Source: Maribellus maritimus
Lineage (GTDB): Bacteria; Bacteroidota; Bacteroidia; Bacteroidales; Prolixibacteraceae
DNA length: 64,000 bases
Direction of reading: 5' to 3'
Assembly (NCBI RefSeq): GCF_022267315.1
Contig: NZ_JAIKLE010000007.1
Location: forward strand, 124,001-188,000
Below the pieces are notes generated by a model. That model ran no database searches. It saw only the letters and a list, made by a program, of their open reading frames with translations, and was not told the origin of the DNA. Within the stretch, counting starts at the first letter, position 1, and every line of letters begins with the position of its first letter. Below, piece after piece: positions 28,458 through 34,387 of this stretch. The position numbers were made by a program, and so were the translations under genes.

Positions 28458-29135
28458 TTAGTTTTCTACTTTAGCCTCTTCTGTTTTTGATGTATCTTCT
28501 TCTTCGGAAACCGGTTTCTCATCCAGTTTATTAAAATATTTGCGGTAAAAAATTAGTATCGAAAAAATTCCAACTGTTATAGCAGAATCAGCAATATTAA
28601 AAACCGGTCTGAAAAACAAATAGTCGTTTCCACCTACAACAGGCAACCAGTTGGGATAGGTACCGCTAAACAGCGGAAAATAAAACATATCCACCACCCT
28701 ACCATGCAAAAAGCTGGAATATCCGCCACCGTCGGGGAACAAAGTTGCTACCTGACCGTAACTGTGGTTAAATATCATTCCGTAAAACAAACTATCGATA
28801 ATATTGCCAACAGCTCCCGCCAGAATAAGAGAAATACTTGCAATAAATCCAAAAGGAATTTCTTTCTGCCTGTATAATTTTGACAAATACCAGCCAATGG
28901 CAACGACCGCTAAAATCCGGAAAACGCTTAAAAACATTTTCCCGTATTCACCGGCAAATTCAAAACCAAAGGCCATTCCGTTATTTTCGACAAAATGAAG
29001 AATAAACCAATTTTTAAAAATCACAATTTCATCGCCAAGAGACATGCTTGTTTTTATCCAAATTTTCAGAATCTGATCAACAATCAGAATTAAAAATATT
29101 ATAGACAATGATTTGCTGCGTCGTGAAAAATTCAT
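28458..29135 (-). CDS. lspA: Lipoprotein signal peptidase II
   Basis: Aspartic membrane protease that removes signal peptides from prolipoproteins. The motifs NNGMAFG, AGAVGNIIDSL and FNIADSAITVG are present; the aspartates of the latter two form the catalytic dyad. The protein is 225 residues, longer than E. coli LspA because of an insertion between the dyad motifs (around HGRVVDMFYFPLF to FFRPV) and a charged C-terminal tail ending in EE/KTEEAK, both usual in Bacteroidota. The ATG at 29135 is preferred over a TTG three codons before. It follows the dksA-like and ileS genes, as often seen in this phylum. Confidence 0.94.
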   Translation of the reverse strand: MNFSRRSKSLSIIFLILIVDQILKIWIKTSMSLGDEIVIFKNWFILHFVENNGMAFGFEFAGEYGKMFLSVFRILAVVAIGWYLSKLYRQKEIPFGFIASISLILAGAVGNIIDSLFYGMIFNHSYGQVATLFPDGGGYSSFLHGRVVDMFYFPLFSGTYPNWLPVVGGNDYLFFRPVFNIADSAITVGIFSILIFYRKYFNKLDEKPVSEEEDTSKTEEAKVEN

Positions 29136-29220
29136 CTTAATCAAATAAAAAAGCTCCCGGATTTTTCAAATCATTGAATATTCCGAAGAGCAAAACTTAA
29201 ATATTATTGTAATTTATAAA

Positions 29221-29598
29221 TTACTTCTGGCTGTTTTTTGCATCAATACTTAATGTAGCATGTGGCACGGCACGCAACCTCTCTTTGGAAATCAGCTTTC
29301 CGGTTTCACGACAAATACCATATGTTTTATTTTCAATGCGAACCAAAGCAGCCTGCAAGTGCTGAATAAATTTTAGTTGACGTTGTGCCAGTTTCCCGGC
29401 TTCTTCTTTTGACAATGTAGCAGCTCCTTCTTCCAATACTTTGAAGGTTGGCGAAGTGTCCTGCGTATCATTCCCGTCGCCAAGAGTAATGGAATTTCTG
29501 TACATCTCATAATCTTCCTGAGCTTTTTTAAGCTTTTTCTGAATGAGCTCTCTGAATTCCTTTAACTCTTCATCTGAATATCTGTTTTTCTCTCCCAT
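29221..29598 (-). CDS. TraR/DksA-like protein lacking zinc cysteines
   Basis: 125 residues: a helical N-terminal two thirds (SDEELKEFRELIQKKLKKA onward, coiled-coil-like, as in DksA) and a C-terminal region in the place of the C4 zinc finger. The usual pattern is C-x2-C ... C-x2-C. Here only the first cysteine remains (GICRETG), and the second pair is replaced (TLSIDAK). The rest of the finger (ISKERLRAVPHATL) is well kept. DksA proteins bind in the RNA polymerase secondary channel and support the ppGpp response; loss of zinc ligands is common in this phylum. Lies between ileS and lspA. Confidence 0.88.
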   Translation of the reverse strand: MGEKNRYSDEELKEFRELIQKKLKKAQEDYEMYRNSITLGDGNDTQDTSPTFKVLEEGAATLSKEEAGKLAQRQLKFIQHLQAALVRIENKTYGICRETGKLISKERLRAVPHATLSIDAKNSQK

Positions 29599-29640
29599 GA
29601 TAAAAGGGTTTAATAATTTCTTCCCGATTTTTTATTGTGC

Positions 29641-29673
29641 CCTAATTTAGTAAATTTTTAATACCTAATTTAG
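29641..29673. repeat. Direct repeat upstream of the dksA-like gene
   Basis: CCTAATTTAG occurs at 29641-29650 and 29664-29673, 23 bases apart, between ileS and the dksA-like gene. Possibly a binding site for a regulator; weakly supported. Confidence 0.3.
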
Positions 29674-29689
29674 GCCAAACAACATATCG

Positions 29690-32600
29690 TTAGTTCAATC
29701 TTTCTACAAGAATTTGCGTTGCAACATCCTTGTCGATTTCAACTTCTTTGGCATCAGGATTATCCAAATTTTCAACCAATTTAAGATCATTCGCCAAAGT
29801 TTGCGTGCAAATATAATCTTTATGACTTAAAACGGCATCATTTATTTTTTCGTGCTTTTCAATCACAAGATTTATTCTGTCAGTTACTTCAAAATTGCTT
29901 TCTTTTCGTAAATTCTGAATTTTGTTGATGAACTCACGGGCAATTCCTTCCAGTTTCAGTTCTTCTGTCACATTGATATCCAGCGCAATGGTCATCTGAC
30001 CTTCGGTTGCCAGTGTCCACCCCTGAATATCTTCTGTTTGTATTTCAACATCTTCTTTTGTGAGTACAATTTTCTCTTCACCCACTGAGATTTCTATACC
30101 TCCATTGCTTTCCAGCTCCGAAATATCGGTTTGATTAAATTGATTTACCGCTCCTGCAATCTGTTTCATCAGTTTCCCGTATTTTGGCCCAAGCGTTTTA
30201 AAATTGGGTTTTATCTTCTTTTTTATGATACCCGTTGTATCCTCCAGATATTCAACGTCTTTTACGTTAACTTCGGTTAAAATGATATCTTTTACCGCGT
30301 TAAACTGATCGCGAAAATGCGGATTTAATACCGGAACCATAATTTTTGCAAGCGGCTGGCGCACTTTCAGCTTTTCCTTCCGGCGCAATGCCAAAATCAT
30401 GGAGGAAGCGCGTTGTGCAATTCCCATTTTTTCTTCCAGATCTTTGTCGATTACTTTCTCGTCGAAAGCAGGGAAATCGACTAAATGAACACTCTGATCA
30501 GCTTCCCGACCGGTTATTTTATTTAAGTCGGCATAAAGCAAATCGGCGTAAAACGGTGAAATCGGCGACATCAGTTTTGCCACATTTACCAAACAGGTAT
30601 ACAGGGTTTGATAAGCAGAGATTTTGTCCTCTGAATATTCACCTCCCCAGAACCGCTTCCGGCTCAACCGCACAAACCAGTTACTCAGGTTTTCAGTTAC
30701 AAATTCTGAAATGGCCCGCCCTGCCCGGGTGGGTTCATAACTTTCGTAGCTTTCCCCTGCTTCTTTTATCAATGAGTTGAGCAGCGACAATATCCAGCGA
30801 TCCAATTCCGGGCGTTTCTCCAACGGGATTTTATTTTCTGCATAGCTAAAATCATCCACATTGGCGTATAAAGCAAAAAAGTTGTAGGTGTTATAAAGTG
30901 TTCCAAAAAACTTCCGTTTTACTTCTTCCACACCGGCAACATCAAATTTCAGATTATCCCAGGGCTGTGCATTGGTAATCATGTACCAGCGCAAGGGGTC
31001 GGAACCGTATTTTTCGATTGTAGCAAACGGATCAACCGCATTCCCTAAACGCTTCGACATTTTATTGCCGTTTTTATCCAGCACCAATCCGTTGGATATA
31101 ATGTTTTTAAAAGCTACCGATTCATCCGTCATGGTAGCAATGGCGTGCAATGTAAAAAACCATCCGCGTGTTTGGTCAACACCTTCAGCAATAAAATCGG
31201 CAGGGAAAAGGCCAGCCCCTCCCAGCCCCTCCCCGAGGGGGAGGGAGTTAAGGACAGTGGTAATTTCATGAAGGACACTGTCAATATTGTTAATTACTTC
31301 TTCGTTGGTAAACCGGATTACTGTGAATCCTAATTTTTTCAATATTTCTGTGCGTTGTTCATCTGAAACCTGAACTTCTGGCAATGAGTGATAACCACCA
31401 TCAACTTCAACGATCAATCTTTTTTCCAAACAAACAAAATCTGCAATAAACTGATCAATAATATGCTGTCGTCTAAACTTGTATTCCAGTTGTTTCCCCT
31501 TCAAATTATTCCAAAGAAAAACTTCCGCATCTGTTGGATTCTCTTTTTGTTTTTTTGTCAACTCCTTTAACAAACCGTGACTCGAATCTCTCGCAGTTTG
31601 CCACTTTGGAACACTTCCTCCCCCCTGGGGGGAGGTCAGGTGGGGGCCTTCAAACGGGTAGTGGTGTTGGGCATAGGGCATTGATCCGGAATCAAACCAT
31701 ACATCAATCAGGTCAGGTTCACGGAACATTTTTTGTCCACCCGGAGAAACCAGCACTACTTTATCTACATACGGTTTGTGTAAGTCTATTTTATCGTAAT
31801 TCTCCTTCGTATTATCCCCCGGTTCAAACCCTTCGTACGGATTTTCAGTCATAAACCCGGCGTCGATAGCTTTTTCTATTTCTGTTGTCAATTCTTCGGC
31901 AGAGCCGATACAAATCTCTTCGGAGCCGTCTTCTGTTCTCCAGATAGGCAGAGGTGTCCCCCAGAAACGGGAGCGGCTCAGGTTCCAATCCACCAGATTT
32001 TCCAGCCAGTTTCCAAAGCGGCCGGTACCCGTACTTTGGGGCTTCCAATTGATGGTGTTGTTTAACTCCACCATTTTATCTTTAACAGCCGTTGTTTTTA
32101 TAAACCAGGAATCCAACGGATAATACAACACCGGTTTATCGGTACGCCAGCAATGCGGGTAGCTGTGCACATGCTTTTCAATTTTAAACGCTTTGTTCTC
32201 CTGTTTTAACATGACCGAAATATCGATGTCAACAGTCGGAGCATCTTCATCCAGTTTATCGTCGTATTCGTTTTTTACCGACCGGCCTGCAAAGTCATGG
32301 TATTTTTCAACATTCACAAAGTCAGCAACAAAATCCGGATCGAGGTTGGCTGTTGGATAGAATCTTCCCTTCCGGTCAACCAGTGCCTGGTTTTTTCCGT
32401 CGGCATCCACTACAATCAGCGGAGATATGCCATGTTGTTTTGCCACACGGTCATCATCGGCACCAAAAGTCGGAGCGATGTGTACAATCCCGGTACCGTC
32501 TTCAATGGTCACAAAATCGCCGGTGATTACCTCAAAAGCTTTTCCTTTTGGTTTTACCCACTCAATCAGTTGTTCGTACGCTACGCCGGCAAGTTCTTCA

Positions 32601-33544
32601 CCGGAATATTCTGCCAGTAATTTGTAGGGAATATTTTTATCACCCGGTTTGTATTCATCAAAAGACAGGCCTTCGTTCTTTTTGTTAAAATACAAAGGGC
32701 ATAAATCTTTTGCCAGGATAACCGTTACCGGCAATCCGGTATATGGATTAAACGATTTTATTTTTACATATTTTATAGCCGGCCCCACACAAAGCGCGGT
32801 GTTCGACGGCAGGGTCCACGGAGTAGTTGTCCAGGCAAGAAAATACAAGTCGGTATCTACTCCCTCATATAAAAACTCTGATTTCCCGTTACGAATGGCT
32901 TTAAACTGCGCCACAGCCGTGGTATCTTTAACATCGCGGTAACACCCCGGCTGGTTAAGCTCGTGCGAACTCAAACCGGTTCCTGCTGCGGGCGAGTAAG
33001 GTTGTATGGTATAGCCCTTGTACAACAAGCCCTTTTTATAAATATTTTTCAGCAACCACCAAACGGTTTCAATATAGCGGTTATCAAAAGTAACATAGGG
33101 GTCATCCATGTTTACCCAGTAGCCCATTATGCGGGTCAACTCTTCCCACTCACGGGTATATTTCATCACCTCTTTGCGGCAGGCGTTGTTGTACTCTTCA
33201 ACCGAAATCTTTTTGCCGATATCTTCCTTGGTAATGTTCAGCGATTTTTCCACACTCAGCTCCACCGGCAAACCATGGGTATCCCATCCTGCTTTGCGGT
33301 GCACACGAAATCCTTTCATGGTTTTGTAACGGCAGAAAATATCTTTAATGGCCCGTGCCATCACATGATGAATACCCGGCATTCCGTTGGCCGAGGGAGG
33401 GCCTTCATAAAATACAAATGTAGGGCGCCCTTCACGTGTAGAAATACTTTTATGAAAAGTATCATCGGCTTCCCAACGTTGTAAAACTTCCTTGTTTATT
33501 TGAGATAAATCTAACTGCTTATATTCCTGAAACTTATTACGCAT
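29690..33544 (-). CDS. ileS: Isoleucyl-tRNA synthetase with in-frame DUF559 nuclease insertion
   Basis: 1284 codons, uninterrupted. Typical class I marks are present: the HIGH counterpart GIHHVMAR near the N-terminus, the editing domain, WFDSGSMPYAQ and NKMSKRLGNAVDP. Residues 633-778 (146 residues) are foreign to the family. They replace a short loop between MPYAQHHYPFE and FPADFIAEGVDQTRG and carry a complete DUF559 domain (about 658-761: TDAE, KFRRQH, ADFVCLEKRLIVEVDGGYH, GFTVIRFTNEEV). Without them the enzyme would be 1138 residues, the usual size in this phylum. This is the only ileS in the window and all catalytic motifs are intact, so the protein is probably functional. See the mobile element entry. 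Confidence 0.95.
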   Translation of the reverse strand: MRNKFQEYKQLDLSQINKEVLQRWEADDTFHKSISTREGRPTFVFYEGPPSANGMPGIHHVMARAIKDIFCRYKTMKGFRVHRKAGWDTHGLPVELSVEKSLNITKEDIGKKISVEEYNNACRKEVMKYTREWEELTRIMGYWVNMDDPYVTFDNRYIETVWWLLKNIYKKGLLYKGYTIQPYSPAAGTGLSSHELNQPGCYRDVKDTTAVAQFKAIRNGKSEFLYEGVDTDLYFLAWTTTPWTLPSNTALCVGPAIKYVKIKSFNPYTGLPVTVILAKDLCPLYFNKKNEGLSFDEYKPGDKNIPYKLLAEYSGEELAGVAYEQLIEWVKPKGKAFEVITGDFVTIEDGTGIVHIAPTFGADDDRVAKQHGISPLIVVDADGKNQALVDRKGRFYPTANLDPDFVADFVNVEKYHDFAGRSVKNEYDDKLDEDAPTVDIDISVMLKQENKAFKIEKHVHSYPHCWRTDKPVLYYPLDSWFIKTTAVKDKMVELNNTINWKPQSTGTGRFGNWLENLVDWNLSRSRFWGTPLPIWRTEDGSEEICIGSAEELTTEIEKAIDAGFMTENPYEGFEPGDNTKENYDKIDLHKPYVDKVVLVSPGGQKMFREPDLIDVWFDSGSMPYAQHHYPFEGPHLTSPQGGGSVPKWQTARDSSHGLLKELTKKQKENPTDAEVFLWNNLKGKQLEYKFRRQHIIDQFIADFVCLEKRLIVEVDGGYHSLPEVQVSDEQRTEILKKLGFTVIRFTNEEVINNIDSVLHEITTVLNSLPLGEGLGGAGLFPADFIAEGVDQTRGWFFTLHAIATMTDESVAFKNIISNGLVLDKNGNKMSKRLGNAVDPFATIEKYGSDPLRWYMITNAQPWDNLKFDVAGVEEVKRKFFGTLYNTYNFFALYANVDDFSYAENKIPLEKRPELDRWILSLLNSLIKEAGESYESYEPTRAGRAISEFVTENLSNWFVRLSRKRFWGGEYSEDKISAYQTLYTCLVNVAKLMSPISPFYADLLYADLNKITGREADQSVHLVDFPAFDEKVIDKDLEEKMGIAQRASSMILALRRKEKLKVRQPLAKIMVPVLNPHFRDQFNAVKDIILTEVNVKDVEYLEDTTGIIKKKIKPNFKTLGPKYGKLMKQIAGAVNQFNQTDISELESNGGIEISVGEEKIVLTKEDVEIQTEDIQGWTLATEGQMTIALDINVTEELKLEGIAREFINKIQNLRKESNFEVTDRINLVIEKHEKINDAVLSHKDYICTQTLANDLKLVENLDNPDAKEVEIDKDVATQILVERLN
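31208..31650 (-). mobile_element. DUF559 mini-element inserted in ileS
   Basis: Foreign segment inside ileS; the inserted codons occupy 31211-31648 (438 bp, exactly 146 codons). AAGGCC at 31208-31213 and GGCCTT at 31645-31650 are inverted ends. Just inside each end is a GC-rich palindrome: 8-bp stem 31227-31234/31238-31245 and 9-bp stem 31617-31625/31627-31635. The two ends are about 40 bases long and imperfect inverted copies of each other. The enclosed DUF559 domain keeps the acidic residues expected of a PD-(D/E)XK/Vsr-like nuclease (E674, D702, E713, D715, with H719). No transposase or intein motifs are present. Movement by nuclease-assisted copying is an inference. Confidence 0.75.
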
Positions 33545-33581
33545 ATAAATCGGCTTTCTATACTGATTTTTAAAAAATATG

Positions 33582-33589
33582 CAAATATA
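33582..33589 (-). promoter_or_regulatory. Putative -7 element of ileS
   Basis: Reads TATATTTG on the minus strand, about 40 bases before the ATG. No convincing -33 element. This would start the ileS transcript. Confidence 0.4.
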
Positions 33590-33712
33590 GGAATTTTTTC
33601 AGGGTGGTGGTTTTCTATTCCTGTTTATGTTGTTTTAACTTCAATATAAACCGATTGGTAAAAATGGTTGCCCGGTATGCGGTGCACACTCCGCTCTGTT
33701 TTTTTACAACAT

Positions 33713-34387
33713 TTACAACAGTTTTAACAAAACCGGAATGGAATTAAAAAGGGCATGAATGAGTATGGAATAAACAATTCCCCGTTTGAATTTTACACGA
33801 AGAAATCCCAGGTATAATCCCATCAGCAGCTGGTAAAATACAATTACCGGGGTAAAAAAATATTGTGTGCTACTCAACTGGTCGAAATTGGTAATATGTA
33901 CACCCCCAAACAACAAGGCCACAAGGTAAAAAACAAAGGGATAATATTTTTTAATGGTGTTGTTTACCGAATTTTCAAAGCGGGTTATCAATCCGGGGAT
34001 ATAAGGTAAGGCAACAATAACTGCAGAAACGACGATGGCAAAGGGCATTCCAAGTGCCGTTTTTGCTGCCATATAAAAGAAAATGGCCAATGGAAAAAAC
34101 ATATTCCTGAAAAAATTCCGCAGAGGCAACCTGAAAATAAGTTCCTCGATAAACGGTGCCCAAACCACAATATATTTTACTTCAGACATTGTATACCCCG
34201 GATGTTCGGGAAGCAAATCCAGCAAGGCCAGCGGGATAAGCAGAAAAGTACAAAATACGATAAACAGAAAAAACACGGGAATGTTTTTAATCAAAAGTAA
34301 AAGCGATTGCCCCAAAGATAAAACCACCGGAGGCGCGATTTCGGGCCTTTTTAAAAAACGGAGGAATTGTTTCAACAGATTCATCAT
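33713..34387 (-). CDS. CPBP-family intramembrane metalloprotease
   Basis: About 224 residues and six to eight hydrophobic helices. The metal-binding motifs of the CAAX-protease/bacteriocin-processing (Abi) family are present: EELIFRLPLR (E-E-x3-R), FGGVHITN and HALFNSI. Such proteases cleave within the membrane; many bacterial members have unknown substrates. The frame is open 43 codons further upstream, but those codons are poor in hydrophobic character. The double ATG at 34387/34384, just before LLKQFLRFLK, is a more natural start. It stands alone between ileS and the PASTA-like gene. Confidence 0.85.
   Translation of the reverse strand: MMNLLKQFLRFLKRPEIAPPVVLSLGQSLLLLIKNIPVFFLFIVFCTFLLIPLALLDLLPEHPGYTMSEVKYIVVWAPFIEELIFRLPLRNFFRNMFFPLAIFFYMAAKTALGMPFAIVVSAVIVALPYIPGLITRFENSVNNTIKKYYPFVFYLVALLFGGVHITNFDQLSSTQYFFTPVIVFYQLLMGLYLGFLRVKFKRGIVYSILIHALFNSIPVLLKLL

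Follow-up and report, generated by a model that had tools for sequence, protein, structure and literature searches.

The isoleucyl-tRNA synthetase gene (ileS) of Maribellus maritimus contains, within its open reading frame, a DUF559 nuclease domain bordered by inverted GC-rich palindromes. Related nucleases are found in frame at the same position, and at fixed positions in other housekeeping genes, across the Bacteroidota. With a little more confidence than doubt, we interpret the insert as a selfish element of homing type that is faithful to its site, does not splice and remains in the host protein.

An in-frame nuclease domain in ileS

The window (the whole stretch of 64,000 nucleotides that was analysed) encodes the features listed in Table 1. 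The original prediction of a DUF559 domain in frame inside a single ileS of 1284 codons is confirmed by the frame and by a match to PF04480 (E 6.8e-33), with which Pfam agrees. That prediction had placed the insert at residues 633-778 (146 codons, 438 bp); the domain stands, whereas the limits, refined by comparing relatives with and without the insert, are now approximately residues 633-777 (145 codons, 435 bp), between HHYPFE(632) and LFPADFIAEG. A frame-preserving invader landing in a loop had been proposed, and the ileS of empty relatives indeed has a short, variable loop at this position, for example HYPFEWKENFKSVFPADF, while in the solved IleRS structure 8c8w three residues separate the aligned flanks. 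The element takes the place of the native loop and does not merely interrupt it. An AlphaFold model of IleS residues 1-1080 with the insert (mean pLDDT 70.4, pTM 0.43) is too weak for domain placement.

Table 1. Features of ileS and its insert in the window
Feature	Position	Strand	Basis
ileS, isoleucyl-tRNA synthetase, host of the insert	29690..33544	-	one 1284-codon open frame, Pfam
In-frame element, codons 633-777, replacing a short native loop	31214..31648	-	comparison with relatives, most without the element
Terminal palindrome, upstream (N-terminal side), translated GPHLTSPQGGG	31616..31648	-	
Terminal palindrome, downstream (C-terminal side), inverted relative to the first, translated SLPLGEGLGGA	31214..31246	-	
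DUF559 nuclease domain, Vsr-like, kin of I-Bth0305I, with E674, D702, E713 and D715	31250..31564	-	

Identity as an intein or an intron was considered and rejected. No intein family appears among the Pfam matches at 1e-5 for the window protein and six others, in keeping with the predicted absence of splicing motifs, and no intron family was matched in Rfam at E 1 across window positions 29000-34000. The element ends in palindrome-encoded linkers where an intein would need splice-junction residues, and the ileS frame is unbroken throughout, unlike that of a gene interrupted by a self-splicing intron. Because the frame is open and intein and intron signals are lacking, the nuclease probably stays inside the host enzyme without excision. 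Two alternatives raised at the outset were not borne out. A second intact ileS is rejected, the genome having one ileS above the family cut-off, and an assembly chimera is unlikely given that the insert is also present in a single-contig genome of the same genus (G036, L072) and that named isolates carry inserts at the same ileS position.

The acidic residues that were expected to be retained, E674, D702, E713 and D715, are kept in 108, 109, 109 and 109 respectively of 109 rows from housekeeping genes, a count that includes six second reads of the same contig. The dN/dS ratio lies at 0.03-0.26 in 14 of 15 hand-picked pairs, some with saturated dS, and the pair that includes the window gives 0.76 from only four changes; the mostly low ratios suggest purifying selection on the nuclease. 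A profile of the inserts matches the structures 3hrl (4.4e-28), a putative endonuclease not recorded as a homing enzyme, and, less closely, 3r3p, the catalytic domain of I-Bth0305I (6.7e-7). The same two structures rank first against the predicted nuclease fold (pLDDT 85.8), with Vsr next at E 0.05; the comparison with I-Bth0305I gives 8.5e-5 and TM 0.67/0.79. By profile and predicted fold, the DUF559 insert is kin of the homing endonuclease I-Bth0305I. A DUF559 gene is also assigned to the EDxHD homing family in PMC9403480.

Distribution, site fidelity and transfer between species

A match to the insert's nuclease is present in at least 175 of 395 Bacteroidota genomes searched phylum-wide. 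The copies retrieved comprise 48 with long frames from the phylum-wide search and the best 80 of at least 565 named relatives; the counts for housekeeping genes are lower bounds, with eight second reads of a contig removed. There are at least 29 copies at ileS site 1, 26 in recG, 22 in valS, 13 in metH with one more at a second metH site, 12 at leuS site 1 and three at leuS site 2, followed by two each in icmF and a RecB-like helicase gene and one each at ileS site 2, in metG and in purL. Representatives of the host genes were confirmed by NCBIfam or Pfam and the remaining ones assigned by motif. Read from motifs, the valS site, leuS site 1 and ileS site 2 appear to correspond to one another at the start of the editing domain. 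In viral contigs 79 loci were matched, one of them at 51% along the full query and the others weaker or partial; two phage records and 39 plasmid records (all below 60%) also have a match.

In-frame DUF559 domains, most of them belonging to other lineages, were also seen within restriction-modification genes (HsdR, HsdM, type ISP and other methylases; loci L054, L077, L078, L080, L081, L187, L189-L196, L199 and L206), often bordered by palindrome peptides, with some of the host names given by motif only. N- or C-terminal fusions of DUF559 to HisF, RNase HI, guanylate kinase, HisD, TrpF and HutG-like proteins were seen at L068, L076, L079, L197, L202, L204, L209, L270 and L294, several with palindrome-like linkers. 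In the genome that supplied the window, contig C120 (L002, ~1330-1940) has a stand-alone DUF559 gene between two similar ABC-permease-like gene ends; the repeat covers the final ~60 bp of that gene and gives the impression of a duplicated target end.

Copies cluster by host site. A tree of 178 rows requires 39 changes of host-site label, compared with 126 for shuffled labels, and a quick tree of 106 rows places all 58 housekeeping-gene copies in one group of 63 (SH-aLRT 98), which also holds one of 17 stand-alone copies and four others. Lineages at a single site can differ between close hosts: the flanks of valS in G021 and G022 are 98% identical in protein and the inserts 53%, and these are therefore diverged lineages at one site. 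The 33 ileS and valS copies of the family set described below lie on one side of a branch with support 95/87, which suggests that a lineage of the element moved between genes at some time. The 18 valS copies, including that of G037, lie on one side of a branch with support 75/99. Multiple origin of the valS copies was discarded: the AU test giving p 0.009 omitted the G037 copy, and with all 18 included one origin is not rejected. For the ileS copies, too, a single origin could not be rejected (p 0.245).

Within the family set of 140 Prolixibacteraceae genomes, the ileS junction was located in 129 and the valS site in 130. The empty site predicted for near relatives is found in most of the family genomes examined, one match spanning the ileS site in 102 of 129. 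At least 15 of the 129 have DUF559 at the junction, and in 12 it is split by shorter inserts, contig ends or divergence; six of these 12 were inspected, of which four have short in-frame linkers and two were unreadable by motif search. Among the 102 continuous genes, G006 matches only to query residue 75, G004 has a longer loop and G052 a palindrome scar. The valS site, directly before TIATTRPET, is occupied by DUF559 in at least 18 of 130 genomes and by short inserts in five. G021 has a second, uninterrupted valS match besides its occupied valS. The valS of G037 (L215) contains the element in a broken frame, and these are the only valS matches in that single-contig genome; sequencing error, decay and a split enzyme are the options. 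On a host tree of 15 occupied and 30 empty ileS rows (the 30 best-matching of 102, not a random draw), insert presence needs 12 changes, compared with 12.8 for shuffled labels. On the valS host tree it needs 10, compared with a shuffled mean of 14 (5 of 500 shuffles were as low), and presence at valS therefore shows partial clustering among the hosts, which a degree of vertical descent would produce.

Comparison of copies at the same site covered 619 pairs, three of which have inserts at least 94% identical in DNA. All three have inserts more similar than the surrounding gene. In ileS of Psychroflexus planctonicus and P. salis, the domain differs at 8 of 330 nucleotides (2.4%) and the flanks beyond 120 bp at 14-21%. 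The inserts of a Tenacibaculum recG pair differ at 20 of 348 positions, against 11-15% in the flanks, and recG of G223 and G428 differs at 10 of 600 positions around the insert, in a stretch picked after looking, against 7-8% in the remaining recG. Protein identity in the three interspecies same-site pairs is 109/113, 113/119 and 118/119 (up to 99%). At the level of aligned sequences, these comparisons show that the element has spread at the same site between species independently of the host gene. A Marinilabilia pair has an insert more diverged than its flanks (22% vs 12-15%), and the window and G036 diverge evenly, by ~2%, across insert and gene; the window insert looks to have been vertically inherited since the split from G036.

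Evidence for co-conversion of flanking DNA is weak and mixed overall. Between genera, none was detected at ileS and valS, where occupied alleles do not have more similar flanks than empty alleles do, and in G016 and G022 the inserts are similar and the adjacent flanks are not. For the Psychroflexus flank beyond the element, a bin selected after looking yields p 0.017; co-conversion is suggested for Psychroflexus ileS and for recG of G223 and G428.

The original prediction further held that the element copies itself into coding DNA. The evidence speaks against such copying around one genome: among 19 pairs of retrieved copies that occupy different sites within a genome, protein identity does not exceed 55%, and no pair is near-identical. 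Occupation of the same gene position across species, transfer independent of the host and clustering by site make the behaviour homing-like, rather than that of an element copying itself around one genome.

Palindromic ends and alternative explanations

Both ends of the element are inverted GC-rich palindromes through which the frame stays open, a feature absent from the original prediction. Left and right ends have a median inverted-match score of 17 (88 copies), compared with 9 for 83 controls taken from coding DNA 750 nt further out; one of 89 in-gene copies was omitted as too near a contig end. The score exceeds the control maximum of 16 in 48 of the 88 copies and does not in 40, and the same-orientation median is 11. 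Within the genome that supplied the window, the palindrome core has two exact matches in 7.3 Mb and a longer end pattern, allowing up to three mismatches, also has two, so a high-copy dispersed palindrome family is rejected for that genome. A search for the same ends elsewhere in that genome found two cases. Contig C111 (L382, ~1490-1610) holds an inverted palindrome pair with the same ends and no nuclease, apparently intergenic and MITE-like, and C88 holds a solo element end. No target duplication was seen at the insert sites, where native loop residues are missing; old events could hide one. Our guess is that the nuclease binds the palindromes.

Remnants of the element are also seen. At the valS site, G034, G048, G071 and G063 keep both palindrome ends in frame with the nuclease core gone, and short palindrome-like remnants occur at the ileS site of G052, G048 and G054. 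These remnants fit the cycle of gain, decay and loss known for inteins (PMC3229294).

In the homing-type interpretation, the element would be a DUF559/EDxHD nuclease gene with inverted GC-rich palindrome ends, residing at one fixed position of an essential gene and, judging from the unbroken frame and missing splicing signals, produced as an additional domain of the host enzyme. When DNA of an occupied allele enters a related cell, the nuclease would cut the empty allele, and repair off the occupied allele would copy the element in with little flanking DNA, a proposed route for the interspecies transfer described above. Occupied alleles would persist because removal must be in frame. Decay of the nuclease, followed by in-frame deletions, would leave palindrome remnants such as those observed. 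The sites are presumably short loops or junctions between domains, able to accommodate a folded domain, and splicing would therefore not be needed. This interpretation is favoured by the site clustering, the horizontal transfer and the kinship to a homing endonuclease. Counting against it are the terminal inverted repeats, which are a transposon trait, the nuclease-less pair on C111, the replaced native loop, the weak co-conversion, the partly clustered presence at valS, the Marinilabilia pair and the vertically inherited window insert.

The strongest competitor, which we regard as unlikely though well worth weighing, is a terminal-inverted-repeat transposon in which DUF559 acts in a transposase-like manner on the palindromic ends and the element inserts wherever possible; only in-frame insertions in tolerant loops would survive, and the same loops would therefore recur. 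The terminal repeats and the missing co-conversion in several comparisons favour it, among them the inserts of G016 and G022 with their dissimilar flanks, and so do the nuclease-less pair and solo end. Two equal-score stand-alone DUF559 matches ~1.4 kb apart, possibly in tandem, were also noted among the matches listed for G114 (C1, 1205761-1207507), as a transposon might leave. A transposon is harder to reconcile with the clustering of copies by host-gene site, the 19 within-genome pairs lacking near-identical copies, native residues that are missing rather than duplicated, and just two exact palindrome cores in 7.3 Mb.

It is improbable that the insert is a host-beneficial nuclease domain, acquired by essential enzymes and kept for a function such as regulation or defence. 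The purifying selection on the nuclease would be expected of such a domain, and related DUF559 copies do lie inside restriction-modification genes; most examined family genomes nevertheless lack the insert and others hold remnants, the host functions are unrelated (IleRS, ValRS, LeuRS, MetH, RecG and IcmF), and neither the terminal palindromes nor transfer independent of the host gene suits a domain retained for its benefit. That an ordinary domain was inserted in frame long ago, then inherited vertically and lost many times, is very improbable, as is an artefact of annotation or assembly: the window and G036 share an insert with uniform divergence, valS presence is partly clustered and some family genomes are fragmented, but different insert lineages occupy one site in the near-identical hosts G021 and G022, interspecies inserts are far more similar than their flanks, and the insert is present in single-contig and isolate genomes.

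Relation to known elements and significance

Homing endonucleases occur as free-standing genes or within introns and inteins. According to a review, it is the link to self-splicing that lets them invade conserved sequences (PMC3943268). The element described here shares a homologous catalytic domain with the EDxHD homing endonuclease I-Bth0305I (PDB 3r3p), and with EDxHD homing endonucleases the occupancy of fixed sites combined with horizontal spread. I-Bth0305I, however, is a mobile-intron protein with extended DNA-binding regions (PMC3943268), whereas the present search found no intron, and the element consists almost entirely of the nuclease domain, embedded in the host enzyme. In-frame residence in conserved essential genes, patchy distribution, transfer across species and decayed copies are also features of inteins that carry homing endonuclease domains (PMC3229294); the present element differs in having no splicing domain that could be found, no visible exit from the protein and GC-rich palindrome ends.

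In-frame palindromes without a nuclease are already known (PMC3733652). The palindromic elements of Rickettsia and REPs resemble the element ends in lying within genes, including those for tRNA synthetases and repair proteins (PMC3733652), but they are short repeats; the present palindromes enclose a conserved nuclease, and few other such ends were found in the genome. REPtrons, in which REP ends accompany a RAYT transposase, also have palindromes flanking an enzyme gene (PMC3733652); RAYTs are HUH tyrosine transposases, in contrast to the Vsr-like DUF559 at fixed sites inside genes. VsrA of Caulobacter is a DUF559 protein with a predicted Vsr-like fold and a link to the DNA damage response (PMC12907096). 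It is encoded by its own gene and has a proposed role in mismatch repair, and the passages of that paper dealing with it do not describe an insertion.

No description of DUF559 as an in-frame mobile element was found in the literature searched (open-licence PMC). The element would be a kind of homing element, possibly a class of its own. The chances seem evenly balanced that such elements constitute a distinct form of selfish DNA in the Bacteroidota: non-splicing homing elements at fixed sites of essential genes, which stay on as permanent additional domains, move from one species to another and degenerate into palindromic linkers. Some of the lineage-specific insertions found in tRNA synthetases, MetH and RecG would then be fossils of nuclease invasion.

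A homing-type nuclease thus appears to inhabit conserved essential genes without splicing, at places where the enzyme can accommodate an entire additional domain. If this is true, the occupied positions would amount to a natural inventory of places where essential enzymes permit insertion, and the elements would be a source of new protein domains and linkers. They would also make it possible to test how a selfish element fares when locked into an essential gene, and would indicate a likely role for DUF559, a common domain of unknown function.
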